Source: a virus. Taken from it: a stretch of 26,138 nucleotides of DNA. Positions 7,203 through 22,630 of the stretch are shown one piece after another (the first letter of the stretch is position 1; every line of letters begins with the position of its first letter). The position numbers and the translations under genes are program-made. Location: positions 1 through 26,138 of IMG/VR virus record IMGVR_UViG_3300047548_000348, one strand, 5' to 3'. Below the pieces are notes generated by a model. The model saw only the letters and a program-made list of their open reading frames with translations, was not told the origin of the DNA and did not search any database.

Positions 7203-8976
7203 TTTCGATGAGTTCTTTGACGCCCTTGATGATGATCCTTTTGAGGAAGAGCCAGTAGATCTTGATACCTTTCTTCATAGTGAAAATTATTTAAATCAAC
7301 CCCCCCTATCAGATGTTCAGAGAGATCTTGTTGAGGCTATGAGCCAGATCTACAAGGAAGACGACTTGATTAGATTAATGGGCCACGAAGAAGGCAAAAG
7401 GCATTACAAGAAATATACTAAAGCAGAGGTAATTCTCCAACTTGGCAAGGGATCTGGCAAAGACCATACCTCAACAATTGGGTGTGCCTATTTAGTATAT
7501 AAACTTCTATGCCTAAAAGATCCAGCAAAGTATTTTGGTAAGCCACCAGGTGACTCAATAGACATTATTAATATTGCTATCAATGCTGAACAGGCGAAGA
7601 ACGTCTTCTTTAAAAACTTTAGAAATAAGATAGAAAGATCCCCTTGGTTTGCTGGAAAATATGATTCCAAGGTTAACAATATTGAGTTTAATAAAGCAAT
7701 CACAGTATTCTCTGGACACTCTGAAAGAGAAAGCCACGAGGGTCTGAACCTGATACTTGCTATCCTTGACGAGATCTCTGGCTTTGCCCAAGAATCTTCC
7801 AGCGGAAATGAGAATGCTAAAACTGGCGATGCTATCTATAAAGCCTTCCGCGCTTCTGTAGATTCTCGCTTCCCAGACTATGGAAAGGTTGTTCTTCTAT
7901 CCTTCCCTCGCTATCCAGGAGACTTTATTTCCAAAAGATACGATGAAGTAGTGGCAGAGAAAGAAGTAGAGTTAAAAAAACATACTTTCATTATCAATGA
8001 CGACATGCCCCCAGATGCTCCAGAAAATCAGTTTGAAATTGAATGGGAGGAAGACCACATTCTTTCTTATAAATATCCTGGAGTTTTTGCTATTAAGCGA
8101 CCAACATGGGAAGCAAATCCCACTAGAAGCATAGAAGACTTCAAGATCGCCTTTATGACTGACTATGCAGATGCTATGCAAAGATTTGCCTGTGTTCCAT
8201 CATTCGTTTCTGATGCGTTCTTTAAGCAGAAGGATAAATTAGAGCGAGCAATGTGCCTTCATAACCCCATTGATCATTTTAAAAGAATAGAGGCAGCCTT
8301 TGAGCCAAAAGATGGAGTAAGATATTTTCTTCATGCTGACCTTGCACAGAAGCATGACAAGTGCGCCATTGCTATTTCTCATGTTGACAAGTGGGTTCAA
8401 GTTAGAACGTTTAACGACTATACACAAGTACATCCATTTGTTATAGTGGACGCCATAGTTTGGTGGGAACCAAGAAAAGAGGGTCCAGTTAATCTTTCAG
8501 AAGTAAAAAACTGGATTGTTGATTTTAGGCGGCAGGGATTCCAAATAGGCCTTGTAACCTTTGACCGATGGCAATCGTTTGATATTCAGCAAGAACTAAA
8601 GTCTGTTGGAATAAAGACAGACACTCTTTCTGTTGGAAAGAAGCACTATGAGGATCTTGCTATGCTTGTTTATGAGGATCGCGTCTTGATGCCACACAAC
8701 GATATTCTTCTTGAAGAAATGAGTCAGTTAAGAATCGTTTCTGATAAAAAAGTTGACCATCCTAGAAAAGGAAGCAAGGACTTGTCAGACGCGGTAACTG
8801 GCTCAGTATATAACGCTATTGCTCATACTCCTAAAAATACAAATCAAGAAATATCAATTCACTCATGGAAGTCTTTGGCTAAGGACAAAATGAAGGAAGA
8901 GGCTCAGGGGCTTATTGAGCCACCAAAGCCAACGGAAGAGATAAAGGAATATCTTTCAAACATGGGCTTTATGTAG
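7189..8976 (+). CDS. terL: Terminase large subunit
   Basis: A 595-residue packaging motor. The ATPase domain has Walker A LGKGSGKD at about 85-92 and Walker B ILAILDE at about 189-195, with the coupling segment LLSFPRYPG near 236-244. The nuclease (RNase H-fold) domain has D384 in FLHADLAQ, D459 in LVTFDRW and the C-terminal acids in GSKDLSDAV (531 and 534). Start TTG 7189 is chosen because GAGGTGATC, unusually complementary to the 16S rRNA tail, lies just upstream. The gene overlaps the small subunit by 14 nt. Walker A is GKGSGKD rather than GxGxGKT/S, with Asp after the Lys, a variant seen in some phage terminases. Confidence 0.93.
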   Translation: MSTLSFDEFFDALDDDPFEEEPVDLDTFLHSENYLNQPPLSDVQRDLVEAMSQIYKEDDLIRLMGHEEGKRHYKKYTKAEVILQLGKGSGKDHTSTIGCAYLVYKLLCLKDPAKYFGKPPGDSIDIINIAINAEQAKNVFFKNFRNKIERSPWFAGKYDSKVNNIEFNKAITVFSGHSERESHEGLNLILAILDEISGFAQESSSGNENAKTGDAIYKAFRASVDSRFPDYGKVVLLSFPRYPGDFISKRYDEVVAEKEVELKKHTFIINDDMPPDAPENQFEIEWEEDHILSYKYPGVFAIKRPTWEANPTRSIEDFKIAFMTDYADAMQRFACVPSFVSDAFFKQKDKLERAMCLHNPIDHFKRIEAAFEPKDGVRYFLHADLAQKHDKCAIAISHVDKWVQVRTFNDYTQVHPFVIVDAIVWWEPRKEGPVNLSEVKNWIVDFRRQGFQIGLVTFDRWQSFDIQQELKSVGIKTDTLSVGKKHYEDLAMLVYEDRVLMPHNDILLEEMSQLRIVSDKKVDHPRKGSKDLSDAVTGSVYNAIAHTPKNTNQEISIHSWKSLAKDKMKEEAQGLIEPPKPTEEIKEYLSNMGFM

Positions 8977-9179: not shown

Positions 9180-9258
9180 CGGCAGGTAGGCAAATTGGTT
9201 ACGCCGCCAGTCTTATAAACTGGGATTTCGATTGCGGGTTCAAGCCCCGCCCTGCCGA
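9180..9258 (+). tRNA. tRNA with anticodon TAT (reads AUA), class II body
   Basis: Acceptor CGGCAGG/CCTGCCG is perfect. The D-stem is 3 bp (GGC/GCC) with loop AAATTGGTTAC. Anticodon stem CCAGT/ACTGG has loop CTTATAA, so the anticodon is TAT at 9214-9216 (AUA, Ile by the standard code). T-stem GCGGG/CCCGC has loop TTCAAGC, and the discriminator is A9258. The variable region is 10 nt (GATTTCGATT, with a possible 3-bp stem), longer than normal for isoleucine tRNAs. The D-arm and A73 look leucine-like. No CCA is encoded. Confidence 0.88.
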
Positions 9259-9554: not shown

Positions 9555-10258
9555 TGGCTAGACTATGTGCCGCAGGGGTAACCCTAAGGGATCAAGTAAA
9601 TCAAAGGTGGGCCTCTAGAGATAAGTCTAGTGATGGCTGGATAGGCGATTCAGCACATCAGGCAAATTCTGGATGGGGAACAAATGGAAGGGGATCTTAT
9701 CATAATCCAGATCCTAATGGCATTGTTCACGCTATCGACCTAGATGAAGACTTCCTTGGTAAGGGCAAGGGCCAAAAAGAGGCGATGGAGTTTGCCCAAC
9801 AACTCGCTACATATTGCAGAGAAGGTAAAGATGGTGGAAGAATTGCTCACATTGTCTATGAAGATAAGGTAGCATCTGCAACCGCAAACAATTGGCATTT
9901 TCGTGGTAGTGGTTATGGCCACACCCATCACATTCATATTAGTTTTACTAATAAAGCAGATAACAATGGAAAGCCATTTGACCTACCCATCTTTGGACCT
10001 GAAAAGTTGTGGGACGGAAATATTCCAAACTATAATAATATTATTGCTGCAATGAAAGATCCAGAACTAAAAAATCTTGCAGCATACAGACTTGCTTGCA
10101 GACTTCACGACCTTGGATTTTTCAAGGGCACCCCAGTAGAATACGAACAGAGTTATCCTTGGAAAGCCGTAGAAGCATGGCAGAAGTCTAAGGGATACAA
10201 CGTCCAGCCCCCAGGAACTTATGGCCGCAAGGCTCATGAAAAGATATTTGGAGAATAA
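9554..10258 (+). CDS. Endolysin, M15-type zinc peptidase with C-terminal wall-binding-like region
   Basis: A 234-residue protein. The N-terminal domain has the metal-binding layout of D-Ala-D-Ala carboxypeptidase-type (M15/VanY-like) enzymes: H35 in GDSAHQ, D62 in VHAIDLDEDF, and the HHIHISF motif at about 125-131 with the last zinc histidine. The C-terminal 75 residues (ACRLHDLGFFKGTP then PWKAVEAWQKSKGY) look like a peptidoglycan-binding helical repeat. There is no signal peptide, so it would need a holin. ATG 9554 is chosen over an upstream in-frame TTG because of the TAATG overlap with the micro-ORF. It cuts peptide stems, complementing the glycan-cutting protein at 6049. Confidence 0.85.
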   Translation: MARLCAAGVTLRDQVNQRWASRDKSSDGWIGDSAHQANSGWGTNGRGSYHNPDPNGIVHAIDLDEDFLGKGKGQKEAMEFAQQLATYCREGKDGGRIAHIVYEDKVASATANNWHFRGSGYGHTHHIHISFTNKADNNGKPFDLPIFGPEKLWDGNIPNYNNIIAAMKDPELKNLAAYRLACRLHDLGFFKGTPVEYEQSYPWKAVEAWQKSKGYNVQPPGTYGRKAHEKIFGE

Positions 10259-18061: not shown

Positions 18062-18243
18062 CACTAACAGATGAACAAGAGAAGGCTCTTAGGGATTTGG
18101 CATCAGCATCAGACGCTCTGCGTCGAACATCGGGGGGCAAGGCAGGAGATGCTGCTGAAAAGAAGTACGGAGAGGCATATACTAGGTGCTATGTGCTTGG
18201 CCTAAAGCAATACAAGATGCAGGTATGTAAAACTACCCGTTGA
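18058..18243 (+). CDS. Hypothetical protein, 61 aa
   Basis: ATG 18058 overlaps the previous stop (ATGA) and follows AAGGAG by 5 nt. The protein is helical and charged (DEQEKALRDLASASDALRR, GDAAEKKYGEAYTRCYVLGL), with two Cys but no zinc motif. The Q(E/A)KALR...AADALRR...GDAAEKxYGxAYxxLV pattern recurs in actinobacterial and phage small proteins of unknown role. Its stop TGA lies inside the -35 (TTGACA) of the tRNA promoter that follows, another example of promoters tucked into gene ends. Confidence 0.7.
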   Translation: MTLTDEQEKALRDLASASDALRRTSGGKAGDAAEKKYGEAYTRCYVLGLKQYKMQVCKTTR

Positions 18244-18269
18244 CAAATGCCTTGCCCCTAGGCTATAAT
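18240..18269 (+). promoter_or_regulatory. Promoter for tRNA-Gly/tRNA-Arg
   Basis: TTGACA, 18 nt, TATAAT, with +1 near 18276 and tRNA-Gly starting at 18282. An inverted repeat CCCCTA (18255-18260)/TAGGGG (18271-18276) brackets the -10. Confidence 0.85.
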
Positions 18270-18281
18270 TTAGGGGTATAT

Positions 18282-18356
18282 GCGGCATTAGTATAAAAGT
18301 TATTATTCCTGCCTTCCAAGCAGGAGAAGTCGGGGCAGTACCGACATGCCGCTCCA
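18282..18356 (+). tRNA. tRNA-Gly(TCC), non-canonical elbow
   Basis: Acceptor GCGGCAT/ATGCCGC is perfect; discriminator T and CCA are encoded. Anticodon stem CCTGC/GCAGG has loop CTTCCAA, anticodon TCC at 18315-18317. T-stem GTCGG/CCGAC is perfect but the loop is GGCAGTA instead of TTCRANN, and the D-loop has AAAAGTT without the GG pair. D-stem is weak (3 bp). Variable loop AGAA. Confidence 0.88.
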
Positions 18357-18357
18357 A

Positions 18358-18430
18358 GCCCCCGTAGTTCAATGGATGAACGGCAGGTTTCTACCCTGCG
18401 CGTATGAAGGTTCGAGTCCTTTCGGGGGTA
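18358..18430 (+). tRNA. tRNA-Arg(TCT)
   Basis: Acceptor GCCCCCG/CGGGGGT (first pair G-T), D-stem GTTC/GAAC with GG in the loop, anticodon stem GCAGG/CCTGC with loop TTTCTAC (anticodon TCT), T-loop TTCGAGT, discriminator A. Starts 2 nt after tRNA-Gly. Canonical. Reads AGA, frequent in this AT-rich DNA. Confidence 0.93.
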
Positions 18431-18461
18431 CAAAATAAAACAAACAATCAAAAGGAGTATA

Positions 18462-18662
18462 ATGGAAACAATGATGGCAGTAGAAGAGCAGTCCGACGTA
18501 CTCAATACTTCTGATCGTTGTGATAGATGCGGCGCTCAGGCTTATGTTTATACAGAGGGTGTATCTGGAAGTCTTCTATGGTGCCGCCATCATTATCTAA
18601 AGCATCAAGATGCAATTGCGTCTTGGGCCTTTGAGACTATTGATGAGACTAATAAGTTGTGA
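18462..18662 (+). CDS. DUF7455-type zinc protein
   Basis: A 66-residue protein with AAAGGAG before the ATG. The core reads DRCDRCGAQAYVYTEGVSGS then LLWCRHHYLKHQDAI and IDETNKL. CxxCxAQA..., a CxHH motif and the C-terminal ID(D/E)ET match the DUF7455 family, a small zinc-binding protein conserved in Actinobacteria. Its function is unknown. Conservation with host proteins supports an actinobacterial host. Its stop TGA supplies the TGN of the next gene's extended -10. Confidence 0.8.
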   Translation: METMMAVEEQSDVLNTSDRCDRCGAQAYVYTEGVSGSLLWCRHHYLKHQDAIASWAFETIDETNKL

Positions 18663-18668
18663 TATACT
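18660..18668 (+). promoter_or_regulatory. Extended -10 promoter built on a stop codon
   Basis: TGA-TATACT, the TGA being the stop of the DUF7455-type gene. Then 6 nt (tacaga) and ATG 18675, leaderless. The gap is 12 nt. Confidence 0.6.
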
Positions 18669-18674
18669 TACAGA

Positions 18675-19217
18675 ATGACAAATCGCGTATGTTCAGTAGA
18701 CGGATGCCAGAAAAAGCATAAAGGTCACGGACTTTGTGACACACACCTACAAAGACAAAGAAAAGGTTTGTCGCTAACAAAGCAATACAGAAACCCTAAT
18801 GGATCATTTGTAGAGTGCAAAATTGATGGCTGTACAGATAAATCAACGTCCCTTGGAATGTGTCCTACACACTATCATAGAATAAGAAAATATGGTAACC
18901 CAGATACCATTCTTCATGTTCAAGCAAAAGGAAAACTATCACATTCCGATGTATGGGTTACCTATCGTGGAGCACATACTAGAGTTGAGAGATCGCGGGG
19001 AAAGGCAAAAGATATGCCGTGTGCCTGGTCAGGATGTGAATCTCAAGCAGATGAATGGGCCTATGATAATAATGATCCAAATGAAGTAACAGATATTGTG
19101 CGGGGCTATGAAAAAAGATATTCTCTTTTGCCAGAGCACTATATCTCATTGTGTAAAAAACATCATGAACTCTATGATATGAAGCATAGAGAATTAAAAA
19201 ACAGGTCAAGCACATGA
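18675..19217 (+). CDS. Multi-zinc-finger HNH-like endonuclease
   Basis: A 180-residue protein. Two zinc repeats open it (CSVDGCQKKHKGHGLCDTH near 6-24 and CKIDGCTDKSTSLGMCPTH near 48-66, each Cx4C...Cx2H). The C-terminal part has a third Cys pair (CAWSGCESQADEWAYDNNDP near 115-134) and ends with LCKKHHELYDMKHRE. This looks like an HNH-type nuclease with tandem fingers, as in phage recombination or homing endonucleases. It is leaderless, sits between tRNA-Arg and tRNA-Thr, and its stop overlaps a 27-aa ORF. Nuclease activity is inferred from the pattern; the key His of a classical HNH is not certain. Confidence 0.72.
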   Translation: MTNRVCSVDGCQKKHKGHGLCDTHLQRQRKGLSLTKQYRNPNGSFVECKIDGCTDKSTSLGMCPTHYHRIRKYGNPDTILHVQAKGKLSHSDVWVTYRGAHTRVERSRGKAKDMPCAWSGCESQADEWAYDNNDPNEVTDIVRGYEKRYSLLPEHYISLCKKHHELYDMKHRELKNRSST

Positions 19218-19297
19218 ACTGGTGTGACGTACACAAAAAACATTTTGAGTACGATGAAAATGGCTGGCCTAATTGCTTGACACAAACAAATCAATAG
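19214..19297 (+). CDS. Micro-ORF, 27 aa, carrying a promoter in its 3' end
   Basis: ATG 19214 overlaps the stop of the HNH-like gene (ATGA). The 27-residue peptide contains CDVHKKH and a second Cys, so it may bind zinc or be the remnant of a finger. Its last codons contain the consensus promoter for tRNA-Thr (TTGACA at 19277), and its stop TAG lies just before the -10. It is either a coupled small protein or an ORF that happens to cover promoter DNA. Confidence 0.4.
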   Translation: MNWCDVHKKHFEYDENGWPNCLTQTNQ

Positions 19298-19305
19298 TGT
19301 AAAAT
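19277..19305 (+). promoter_or_regulatory. Consensus promoter for tRNA-Thr and downstream array
   Basis: TTGACA, 17 nt, TAAAAT. Predicted +1 near 19312. The transcript would start with a strong hairpin (19317-19352) and then tRNA-Thr. Confidence 0.8.
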
Positions 19306-19316
19306 ATTCGACAAGG

Positions 19317-19352
19317 CCAGAGAACAATCCCTGCGAAAGTAAATTGCTCTGG
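19317..19352 (+). other. Leader hairpin before tRNA-Thr
   Basis: CCAGAG-AA-CAAT (19317-19328) pairs with ATTGCTCTGG (19343-19352): 10 bp with a 2-nt bulge and a 14-nt loop. It ends 4 nt before tRNA-Thr, near the 5' processing site. Confidence 0.6.
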
Positions 19353-19356
19353 TTAC

Positions 19357-19429
19357 GCCTCAATAACTCAGTTGGTAGAGTGCTTCACTTGTAATGAAGA
19401 TGTCGCGGGTTCGACTCCTGCTTGAGGCT
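19357..19429 (+). tRNA. tRNA-Thr(TGT)
   Basis: Acceptor GCCTCAA/TTGAGGC, D-stem ACTC/GAGT with GG in the loop, anticodon stem CTTCA/TGAAG with loop CTTGTAA (anticodon TGT), T-loop TTCGACT, discriminator T. Canonical. No CCA encoded. Reads ACA. Confidence 0.94.
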
Positions 19430-19454
19430 CGTAAGTCCGACAAAAGGAGAAACA

Positions 19455-19823
19455 ATGATTAATAAGTTTATTGCTGCAATTGCTATTTCTTCAGCAGTAG
19501 TGGTTGCTGCTCCAGCAGTTGCAACGGCGGCAGAGCCAAATGTTGCCGTATCAAAGGCTAGCGATTACAGCACGAGCAAGAAGAACCAGTTCTGGAATGT
19601 TGCAAGGTCGCTAGACCCAATGGTAAAATATGCAGGTAAGAAGAGCACCATCAACCTTGGAGTAGCAACATGTGATCTCCTGAGAGCAGGAGGAGACATG
19701 GAGGATCTAGCAATGCTGGTTGTTGATGCTAATGTAGGAGCAGCAGCAGAGAGCGCTCTTATCGCTGTTATTGCTAGCGCTCCAGCAGTTCTCTGTCCTG
19801 ATCAGCAGTATAAGTTCGATTAG
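19455..19823 (+). CDS. Secreted DUF732-like protein
   Basis: A 122-residue protein from ATG 19455 with AAAAGGAG 5 nt upstream; an in-frame ATG at 19422 overlaps the tRNA and is rejected. A clear Sec signal peptide (INKF, then hydrophobic AAIAISSAVVVAAPAVA, cleavage near ATAA-EP at about 26-27). The mature part is helical with a Cys in GVATCDLLRAGG and another in APAVLCPDQQ, giving the C...CL..G...LCP layout of DUF732-like secreted proteins common in mycobacteria and relatives. These are exported, disulphide-linked small proteins without a proven function. In a phage it may modify the host surface, for example to block superinfection; that is inference. Confidence 0.75.
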   Translation: MINKFIAAIAISSAVVVAAPAVATAAEPNVAVSKASDYSTSKKNQFWNVARSLDPMVKYAGKKSTINLGVATCDLLRAGGDMEDLAMLVVDANVGAAAESALIAVIASAPAVLCPDQQYKFD

Positions 19824-19829
19824 GATGGC

Positions 19830-19901
19830 GGCCCGTTCGTCTAAAAGTTAGGATCGCGCCCTTTCAAGGCGCAGAAGAGGGGGCAGTACCCTCACGGGCT
19901 A
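19830..19901 (+). tRNA. tRNA-Glu(TTC), non-canonical elbow
   Basis: Acceptor GGCCCGT/ACGGGCT (first pair G-T), anticodon stem GCGCC/GGCGC with loop CTTTCAA (anticodon TTC at 19863-19865), T-stem GAGGG/CCCTC. The T-loop is GGCAGTA and the D-loop AAAAGTT, the same departures as in tRNA-Gly at 18282. Variable loop AGAA. Discriminator A, no CCA. Confidence 0.87.
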
Positions 19902-19905
19902 CTAG

Positions 19906-19986
19906 GGTAGAGTTGGACAGGTGGTGAGTCCCATTGACTGTAAATCAATCGCTTATGCTGTGGAGGTTCGATTCCTCTCTCTACCA
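19906..19986 (+). tRNA. tRNA-Tyr(GTA)
   Basis: Acceptor GGTAGAG/CTCTACC, D-stem GGAC/GTCC with GG in the loop, anticodon stem ATTGA/TCAAT with loop CTGTAAA (anticodon GTA), a long variable arm (CGCTTATGCTGT), T-loop TTCGATT, discriminator A. Canonical class II tyrosine tRNA. Confidence 0.94.
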
Positions 19987-20015
19987 CGCAAAATAACTAC
20001 TACAGAAAGATACCA

Positions 20016-20525
20016 ATGAACGTCATTGATGAATACAAGTTTATGTATCTTGATGAAATTAAGGCACAATTGAATACAAAGAGAGCAGGATTTACTTCTG
20101 TCTTTCTTAACCTTACCCACGACTTTAATAAAAGTGTTGGAGTGCGCAATCACAATGCTTTTGCAGGAAAGGATATTTGGTTTGTTGGTAAGAAGCAGTG
20201 GGATAAGCGAGGAGCAGTAGGAACCTATCATTATGAGGACATACATTATGCCGATTCTTGGGACACTTTTCTTTTGCATAAGCCAGACGGACCCATTATC
20301 TGTGTGGAAAATGTTGGTGGTTCAAAGCAGGTTTCTCTAGATTCATTTGATCTTCCTTCCAATTCTATCTTTGTCTACGGAGAAGAAAAGGAAGGTATTC
20401 CAGATTATGTGCTAGATTCAGCAGATTATGTTCTCTCTATTCCTATGTGGGGTAGCGTAAGATCGTTGAATGTTGGCGTATCCTCTGGTATTATTATGTT
20501 CGAATATCGTCGTCAGCATGGTTAA
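20016..20525 (+). CDS. SpoU/TrmH-family RNA 2'-O-methyltransferase
   Basis: A 169-residue single-domain SPOUT enzyme. The three SpoU motifs are in order: motif 1 around NKSVGVRNHNAF (Asn38, Arg44, Asn45), motif 2 SIFVYGEEKEGIP (about 117-129) and motif 3 SIPMWGSVRSLNVGVSSGI (about 141-159), which forms the SAM-binding knot. Family members 2'-O-methylate tRNA or rRNA; the short length is near TrmL-type enzymes. Specificity is not decidable. It lies within the tRNA array, has no good ribosome site, and starts 30 nt after tRNA-Tyr. Its last 10 nt are the first 10 nt of tRNA-Val, so tRNA 5' processing would remove its stop codon. Confidence 0.87.
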   Translation: MNVIDEYKFMYLDEIKAQLNTKRAGFTSVFLNLTHDFNKSVGVRNHNAFAGKDIWFVGKKQWDKRGAVGTYHYEDIHYADSWDTFLLHKPDGPIICVENVGGSKQVSLDSFDLPSNSIFVYGEEKEGIPDYVLDSADYVLSIPMWGSVRSLNVGVSSGIIMFEYRRQHG

Positions 20526-20751: not shown

Positions 20752-21186
20752 ATGACAAAGCACAAAGAAAATATACTTCGCTTGCGTAGTGAAGGAAAGA
20801 CATATAAAGAAATACAAAACGAACTTGGATGCTCTAAAGGAACCATTTCTTATCATGTAGGAGAGGGCCAAAAAGATAAAACAATAGGAAGAACACGAGA
20901 TAAGCGTGGTGAAATTAAAAAATATATTCAAAAATATAAGCAGGAGCATCCATGCGTCGATTGCGGTGAAAATTATCCATATTGGATAATGGAGTTTGAT
21001 CATCTAAAAGATAAAAAGTTTAATTTAAGTGGTTTTTATGTAAAAACTGCAAAACTTGAAACAGTAAAAAAGGAAATAGAAAAGTGTGAGGTAGTATGTT
21101 CTAATTGTCATAAAAATAGAACATACATGAGATCATACCGCAATGGATCAAATTCTCTTGACGTTTCCATGTACTATGATATATAA
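20752..21186 (+). CDS. HTH-HNH endonuclease (paralogue of the one at 5633)
   Basis: A 144-residue protein. The N-terminal 35 residues are a helix-turn-helix (ILRLRSEGKTYKEIQNELGC then SKGTISYHV), followed by a basic linker and an HNH core: CVDCGENYPYWIMEFDHLKD (about 68-87) and KCEVVCSNCHKNRTY (about 111-125). The core matches the 5633 gene closely in spacing and motif. The gene is leaderless and placed between tRNA-Gln and tRNA-Asn, in keeping with a homing endonuclease that has settled in a tRNA array. Its last codons contain the promoter of the next tRNAs. Confidence 0.86.
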   Translation: MTKHKENILRLRSEGKTYKEIQNELGCSKGTISYHVGEGQKDKTIGRTRDKRGEIKKYIQKYKQEHPCVDCGENYPYWIMEFDHLKDKKFNLSGFYVKTAKLETVKKEIEKCEVVCSNCHKNRTYMRSYRNGSNSLDVSMYYDI

Positions 21187-21187
21187 T
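21158..21187 (+). promoter_or_regulatory. Promoter for tRNA-Asn/tRNA-Ser inside HNH gene end
   Basis: TTGACG, 18 nt, TATAAT. The HNH stop TAA (21184-21186) lies inside the -10. tRNA-Asn starts 12 nt after it. Confidence 0.7.
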
Positions 21188-22165: not shown

Positions 22166-22630
22166 ATGAAAAAGACAGCAGTGATATTCGATATGGACGG
22201 CACTCTTGCAGATGTGTCGTCTATTCGTCATTACCTAAAGTCTTTTGATGAATCAAAGCGTAGAGTTATCAAACACTTTGATAAGTTTCATGATGAGTCT
22301 ATCAATGTGCCACCGCATAATCACGTTGTGAATGCAGCGCAGATAGCGCATATGCTAGGACATGCCGTGCTTATCGTTACTGCACGCAAGCACATGTGGC
22401 GTCATCACACTGCATGGTGGCTTGCTCTGCATAGAGTTCCTAGCGATATGCTAATGATGCGAGGCAACCTTGACAACAGAAAAGACTACTTGGTTAAAAG
22501 GGATATGCTTGCAACCATACGGAAAGCATACAATGTTATTCACGCATGGGATGATAATCCATCCATTATCAAACTCTGGACAGAAGAGGGTATCCCGTGT
22601 ACAATAGTGGATGGTTGGGATCATGGCTGA
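22166..22630 (+). CDS. HAD-family phosphatase (polynucleotide 3'-phosphatase-like)
   Basis: A 154-residue HAD hydrolase. Motif I is VIFDMDGTLAD with the nucleophile Asp9 and acid Asp11; motif II is the Thr in LIVTARKHMW (about 74-83); motif III is a Lys/Arg in KRDMLATIRK; motif IV is IHAWDDNPSII. The lack of a large cap and the VTAR-K and DDNP motifs recall the 3'-phosphatase half of T4-type polynucleotide kinase. The kinase half is absent. The start is 5 nt after tRNA-Leu with no ribosome site. RNA or DNA end repair is possible; a 5'-nucleotidase role cannot be excluded. Confidence 0.78.
   Translation: MKKTAVIFDMDGTLADVSSIRHYLKSFDESKRRVIKHFDKFHDESINVPPHNHVVNAAQIAHMLGHAVLIVTARKHMWRHHTAWWLALHRVPSDMLMMRGNLDNRKDYLVKRDMLATIRKAYNVIHAWDDNPSIIKLWTEEGIPCTIVDGWDHG

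Follow-up and report, generated by a model that had tools for sequence, protein, structure and literature searches.

Phage tRNA-Gly and tRNA-Glu genes with an apparently re-wired elbow, and a co-varying class of phage tRNAs to which they belong

The IMG/VR virus record IMGVR_UViG_3300047548_000348 (26,138 nucleotides, analyzed at its full length and called the window below) harbors 11 tRNA genes, two of which, for tRNA-Gly(UCC) and tRNA-Glu(UUC), carry the same non-canonical combination of D-loop, variable loop and T-loop. Judging from a survey of about 1,000 phage tRNAs, the two genes probably encode functional tRNAs of the translation type with an elbow re-wired as a whole, with independence from, or invisibility to, elbow-reading host factors as the putative benefit. 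The class of alternative-elbow tRNAs appears to be a new natural variant of tRNA, and no description of natural phage tRNAs with such an elbow was found in the open literature. Few bases in biology are as conserved as G18, U54, U55 and A58, and their modifications are near-universal; their natural, recurrent and co-varying replacement, with the contacts of the L shape apparently preserved, suggests that the tRNA code can change at the elbow. To judge from its terminase, which showed 55.7% identity to those of Streptomyces phages such as Karimac (classified in Stanwilliamsviridae), the window phage appears to be a distant relative of the Karimac-type actinobacteriophages.

The two tRNA genes and the co-variation of their loops

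The tRNA-Gly gene is located at positions 18282–18353 and is followed by CCA at 18354–18356. It lies on the plus strand, as do tRNA-Glu, tRNA-Arg(UCU), tRNA-Tyr(GUA), the promoter-like site at 18240–18269 and the methyltransferase gene at 20016–20525 described below. Its D-loop AAAAGTTA (18295–18302, including A17, A18 and G19), 4-nt variable loop AGAA (18325–18328) and T-loop GGCAGTA (18334–18340; G54, G55, C56, A57, G58, U59 and A60) recur exactly in the tRNA-Glu gene at 19830–19901 (19843–19850, 19873–19876 and 19882–19888, respectively). The original prediction of two tRNAs with a common non-canonical elbow was thus confirmed, including the T-loop and the variable loop; the D-loop it had given, AAAAGTT, covers seven of the eight nucleotides of AAAAGTTA. 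Both genes formed intact cloverleafs with complete stems, a 7/5 acceptor/T geometry, an 8-nt D-loop and two linker bases. The remaining nine tRNAs of the window were all canonical, with GG in the D-loop and TTCRANN as the T-loop, and tRNA-Arg(UCU) at 18358–18431 and tRNA-Tyr(GUA) at 19906–19987 served as internal controls. The 11 tRNAs have 11 different anticodons, and the alternative pair represents the sole Gly and Glu genes.

The Rfam tRNA model RF00005 scored tRNA-Gly at 45.1 bits and tRNA-Glu at 39.2 bits (cut-off, 29); with the default filters tRNA-Gly was reported and tRNA-Glu was not, and ARAGORN reported neither. With respect to the features of the model, both tRNAs had A18G19 in place of G18G19 in the D-loop, and the T-loop GGCAGTA kept only C56 and R57 of U54, U55, C56, R57 and A58, while the 18–55 and 19–56 pairing between the two loops, judged by co-variation, was present. 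Inspection by eye located G1–C72, C2–G71, G3–C70, U73 and C35C36 in tRNA-Gly, and U11–A24, U13·G22 and the absence of base 47 in tRNA-Glu; the aminoacyl-identity positions of both thus look intact.

The survey employed a cloverleaf finder blind to the sequences of the D- and T-loops, which was applied to the window, viral contigs, many of them fragments of uncultured phages, and isolate phage records. The finder gave 12 matches on 2.9 Mb of reversed sequence and about 850 on the real sequence, demonstrating that the two alternative cloverleafs are not chance structures. Matches of the gapped 16-base bait patterns to viral contigs were mostly due to chance, and these were removed by the structure check. 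The set used for the statistics (n=820) was made non-redundant by removing bait-matching tRNAs and collapsing near-identical ones, and positions 17–19 were numbered by rule.

In this set, D-loop bases 18–19 followed T-loop bases 55–56. UC in the T-loop was accompanied by GG in the D-loop in 702 of 717 tRNAs and GC by AG in 52 of 54, and UU was mostly combined with GA (12/17). The Fisher p-value for the 18–55 association was about 1e-64, to be taken as an indication of strength since the tRNAs are not fully independent. One-step intermediates were rare, as AG was found with UC in 6 of 717 and GG with GC in 2 of 54. Because the D-loop follows the T-loop in this manner, A18:G55 appears to replace G18:U55 (pseudouridine 55, Ψ55) with G19–C56 retained, and A19:U56 appears to replace G19:C56 in the UU/GA tRNAs. 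The co-variation across hundreds of phage tRNAs upheld the numbering originally proposed (A18, G19, G54, G55, C56 and G58), together with the view that the elbow has undergone a coordinated change at 18, 54, 55 and 58, and not decay.

A second alternative elbow was also observed, combining the T-loop TTTGA with GA in the D-loop, in which A19–U56 stands for G19–C56 and U54, U55 and A58 are retained. The tRNAs of this type were located at 7044 of contig L166, at 2092 of L150, and at 1389, 2666, 5070 and 5857 of L151.

Within the A18:G55 class, the 54–58 pair was G–G in 17, U–A in 16 and A–U in 15 tRNAs of the n=820 set, in roughly equal proportions. Base 60 was A in 41 of 42 G–G forms and in all 13 A–U forms, and the U–A forms retained a pyrimidine there. 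The variable loop was nearly always 4 nt in the G–G and A–U forms, so that a short variable loop accompanied the non-UA pairs, and the 15–48 Levitt combination was mostly lost in the same forms. In the G–G form, bases 17 and 59 also co-varied (35 clustered tRNAs, with A–U in 7, U–A in 8 and C–C in 9; p about 1e-4), with no such signal among canonical tRNAs. The combination of AAAAGTTA and GGCAGTA in the window appears to be one consistent solution, with A17–U59, and tRNA-Gly and tRNA-Glu could therefore share their loops without gene conversion.

Distribution and evolution at orthologous genes

The A18:G55 class comprised 52 non-redundant, non-bait tRNAs from 24 loci of unrelated phages, with 24 anticodons, and included initiator-like tRNAs (L226, L192 and L313). 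Unrelated phages also had the AAAAGTTA/GGCAGTA loop pair itself in their tRNAs for Thr, Gln, His and Ala. Members of the class were often the sole decoder of their codon within the tRNA set of a phage; in an array of 26 tRNAs (L158), the alternative ones were the only Glu and His genes. Several contigs were rich in alternative elbows, with 8 of 9 tRNAs in L188, 4 of 6 in L189 and 7 of 17 in L166; protein searches yielded no host name for L166 or L188. BLAST searches of the two window tRNAs against isolate phages returned mainly partial matches, and led to a tRNA-His of Samistivirus and a tRNA-Glu of a Stenotrophomonas phage. The alternative tRNA-His adjoins a normal tRNA-His in Streptomyces phage Jay2Jay and is conserved among Samistivirus and Coruscantvirus phages, the alternative tRNA-Glu of Stenotrophomonas phage BUCTxx99 is unannotated, and Vibrio phage 2.275.O has an alternative tRNA-Cys. 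Another tRNA, at 5228 of L173, combined the anticodon CTA (an amber reader) with the alternative elbow GGCAGCA.

In cellular genomes, the pattern AAAAGTTA..GGGGCAGTACC, corresponding to the AAAAGTTA/GGCAGTA form, matched nine stretches among 84,980 genomes, and no cloverleaf was scored for any of them. The pattern of the alternative tRNA-Glu was found in 0 of 299 and 0 of 199 bacterial/archaeal genomes, these two sub-forms being the only ones tested, and the canonical tRNA-Glu pattern, as a positive control, was found in 11 of 40 genomes of the first phylum. On the surveyed loci, ARAGORN recovered 672 of 675 canonical tRNAs, 13 of 16 A18:G55 tRNAs with U54–A58 and 6 of 13 with A54–U58, and none of the 42 with G54–G58. 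The last group of genes is thus overlooked when phage tRNAs are counted, codon usage is discussed or defence evasion is studied on the basis of ARAGORN.

The comparison of orthologous genes indicated how the elbow changes. The Glu gene of the window was identical over 74/74 nt to that of L126 (G007), both with GGCAGTA and AAAAGTTA, while the flanks were about 70–77% identical. The orthologs in L057 and L344 had ATCGAAA with AATGGCTA, and that in L326 had TTCAATT with ATTGGTTA. The D-stem and the T-stem were identical in all five genes, and the anticodon stem was common to all but L326; most T-loop positions thus differed where the D- and T-stems did not, contrary to the pattern usual in tRNAs. 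The Gly gene was 98.7% identical to that of L057 (G008), where Gly, and not Glu, is of the GGCAGTA type. In L334 the GGCAGTA elbow of Gly was kept, along with a compensated change in the T-stem and different anticodon-stem pairs compared with the window. The Gly gene had AGCGTTA/AAAAGCA in L126, and normal loops in L326 and many others. The identity of 98.7–100% of the tRNA genes (18279–18354 versus L057; 19830–19903 versus L126) suggests recent exchange or strong constraint.

Similar changes were seen in other isotypes. The tRNA-Phe of L187 had AG/AGCGTTA and its T5-like homologue (about 80% identical) GG/ATCGTTA, sites 18 and 55 changing together. The nearest canonical relative had the same anticodon for 40 of 72 A18:G55 tRNAs, when compared to 2.8 expected, indicating that the elbows changed within isotypes. 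It thus appears from these comparisons that elbows change repeatedly inside isotypes, as sets. Normal loops at the same genes in related phages had originally been regarded as a sign of decay or error; some relatives indeed have them, but decay is not implied when the elbows change in this way. The E. coli phage TrudiGerster (Bas27; L317) carries a T5-like tRNA-Met with ATCATAC at 8006 and a tRNA-Phe with ATCGTTA at 10001, in which G18–U55 is kept and the 54–58 pair is reversed to A–U, and these would provide a laboratory-tractable intermediate form of the elbow.

Proposed explanation and its rivals

Judged by sequence and co-variation, A18:G55 stands in place of G18:Ψ55 with the outward-facing G19–C56 kept, and the closing pair U54–A58 is changed to G54–G58, or to A54–U58 in the sister forms, along with A at base 60, a variable loop of usually 4 nt and co-varying bases 17 and 59. 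The replacement pairs would be nearly isosteric and hold the same L shape, so that synthetases, RNase P, EF-Tu and the ribosome would still accept the tRNA. The 19–56 pair, which is kept, makes up the flat surface that RNase P and the ribosomal L1 stalk recognize (PMC4810234). Every elbow base modified in bacteria (Gm18, m5U54, Ψ55 and m1A58) would be absent with the outer face kept. With less certainty, such phage tRNAs may fold and work without the elbow-modifying enzymes of the host, and may go unrecognized by those host factors that rely on the canonical elbow, tRNA-cutting defences possibly among them. The original suggestion of escape from host modification holds as a statement on the sequence, the substrate bases being absent from the elbow.

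Relatives switch the elbow state at one gene, with the D- and T-stems unaltered in the case of Glu, which fits fluctuating selection. That the elbow evades defence nucleases, or host enzymes which read it, may be regarded as plausible. For the PARIS nuclease AriB, contacts with the D-loop have been modelled, the U16C change impairs cleavage, and the sequence of T5 tRNA-Lys outside the anticodon arm matters (PMC12409363), so that changes in the loops could in principle matter for this enzyme. The wider proposal, a hidden class of modification-free phage tRNAs whose matched-set elbow would be unreadable to host enzymes and tRNA-targeting immune nucleases, with the elbow state exchanged among relatives in an arms race, is put forward tentatively and is rather unlikely in this full form.

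Several observations weigh against a benefit of this kind. The class accounted for only 1.4% (5/361) of the tRNAs in contigs fetched via an unrelated canonical tRNA anchor, the sample from which the prevalence was taken because the bait searches had enriched the G–G form. Individual phages carry normal and alternative elbows side by side, and normal elbows suffice for close relatives; an advantage would accordingly be conditional, if there is one at all. The evidence of the AriB type bears on pyrimidines of the D-loop and on the anticodon stem rather than on positions 18 and 55. No defence system is known to read positions 54, 55 or 58.

A serious rival is neutral compensatory drift, in which constraint from the host modification enzymes would be weak and the elbows would wander between equivalent pairs without benefit, the L shape being kept. 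Several equivalent combinations indeed coexist at low frequency in all isotypes (GC/AG, TT/GA, and TC/GG with A54–U58, G54–G58 or A54·A58), and the elbow state differs between close relatives. Against drift stand the rarity of the single-step intermediates, the change of most T-loop positions of Glu over constant D- and T-stems, the phages with mostly alternative tRNAs such as L188 and L189, and the fact that the replaced bases are those modified by the host. Drift is thus a possible, although on balance unlikely, sole cause.

Nearly the same standing, slightly lower, is given to selection for modification independence only, in which the elbow would be favored as one stable without Ψ55, m5U54, m1A58 and Gm18, as when tRNAs are made in a burst or when hosts differ in their sets of modifications, and defence would have no part. 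The alternative elbow has lost each of the four modifiable bases and kept the unmodified C56 and G19, and the modifications at 18, 54, 55 and 58 are known mainly to stabilize the elbow (PMC7912444). This explanation is made doubtful by the retention of the modifiable bases in most phage tRNAs, including nine in the window, and of two of the sites in the A18:G55 form with U54–A58.

The other alternatives fared much worse. Gene conversion or recombination copying the elbow between the two tRNAs within this phage, one of the original proposals, would explain why both loops and the variable loop are exactly common to Gly and Glu; it is highly improbable as all the stems between these loops differ, the loop pair is present in other isotypes of unrelated phages, and relatives differ in elbow at both genes, L057 having the GGCAGTA type in one of them. 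The proposed non-translational role, with avoidance of EF-Tu as in the staphylococcal cell-wall tRNA-Gly, was suggested by the non-canonical elbow of tRNA-Gly(UCC) and is equally remote, given the 24 anticodons of the class including initiator-like tRNAs, the decoding slots that it alone fills in complete tRNA sets of phages, the apparently intact identity positions and the lack of a cell-wall ligase gene among the neighbouring genes scanned. Decayed genes or sequencing and assembly errors, in line with the silence of ARAGORN on both genes, can practically be dismissed in view of the intact stems with compensated changes, the co-varying partner loop and the conserved tRNA-His of Samistivirus and Coruscantvirus phages, and sequencing error is ruled out as near-identical copies (Glu, 74/74; Gly, 98.7%) recur in two independent contigs, with an identity of only about 70–79% in the flanks. 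The same genes carry normal, intermediate or re-wired elbows in syntenic relatives, and the class co-varies and spans 24 anticodons, which makes error, decay and a single conversion event between Gly and Glu unlikely. Functional tRNAs with an elbow re-wired as a unit are the reading that we prefer.

Neighbouring genes and comparison with known tRNAs

A predicted sigma-70-type promoter-like site, TTGACA-18-TATAAT, was located at 18240–18269, 12 nt upstream of tRNA-Gly, on the basis of its 12/12 match to the consensus only. It is one of three near-perfect predicted sites of this type directly before tRNAs, the others being at 19277–19305 (Thr) and 21158–21187 (Asn). The tRNA cluster also contains a gene for a SpoU/TrmH-superfamily RNA 2'-O-methyltransferase (20016–20525; PF00588, E=1.3e-17), with 81–86% identity in three syntenic relatives. 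The protein scored below the TrmL and TrmH equivalog cut-offs, and position 34, 18 or another would be the candidate target. A tie between this gene and the alternative elbow was considered and rejected, since a normal-elbow relative keeps the gene and the homologue of Rhodococcus phage Trina lies in a stretch without tRNAs. A PNKP-type HAD phosphatase domain (22166–22630) adjoins tRNA-Leu. It is distantly similar, at about 28%, to polynucleotide kinases encoded by Jay2Jay and Karimac, two phages that have an RNA ligase as well; a role in tRNA repair is possible. The tRNA-Ile(UAU) at 9180–9258 has a 10-nt variable region, unusual in an isoleucine tRNA.

The alternative-elbow tRNAs resemble the canonical bacterial elongator tRNA (RF00005) in the cloverleaf, stem lengths, anticodon loops, G19–C56, U8, identity positions and the clustering of phage tRNA genes, but differ in having A18:G55, G54–G58, A60, usually a 4-nt variable loop and the 17–59 co-variation, and in being largely invisible to ARAGORN. 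They would offer natural double and triple mutants for asking what the elbow and its modifications do, and their elbows could supply sequences for tRNAs designed to be orthogonal to the modification enzymes of the host. By in vivo selection of suppressor tRNAs with randomized D- and T-loops, Zagryadskaya, Doyon and Steinberg reportedly obtained, in 2003 (NAR 31:3946), active E. coli suppressors with G54–G58 or G54–A58 for U54–A58, modelled as reverse-Hoogsteen mimics. Their study is among the references of PMC7912444, where it is cited on the 54–58 pair. Those suppressors came from laboratory selection, whereas the phage class is natural and recurrent, occurs in many isotypes and comes together with A18:G55 and A60. 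The non-proteinogenic tRNA-Gly(UCC) of staphylococci lacks the D-loop GG and the usual T-loop; unlike it, the phage class is phage-borne, is not restricted to Gly, has no cell-wall context, and has elbow pairs that appear swapped, not lost.

T5 tRNA-Lys evades PARIS AriB (PMC12409363) and T5 tRNA-Tyr evades retron-Eco7 (PMC11555353). These are likewise phage tRNAs, which replace host tRNAs under attack, and for AriB the sequence outside the anticodon matters; their elbows are not described as re-wired, and the present class is known here from sequence alone. Natural departures from G18G19/TΨC, or extra contacts between the D- and T-loops, are known in tRNA-Pyl, tRNA-Sec and allo-tRNAs, including the C16–C59 contact of E. 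coli tRNA-Sec (PMC7609411). Those tRNAs alter the lengths of the arms, with an acceptor domain of 12–13 bp, a short D-loop and one linker base, whereas the phage class has normal arms and appears re-wired only in the pairing of the elbow.

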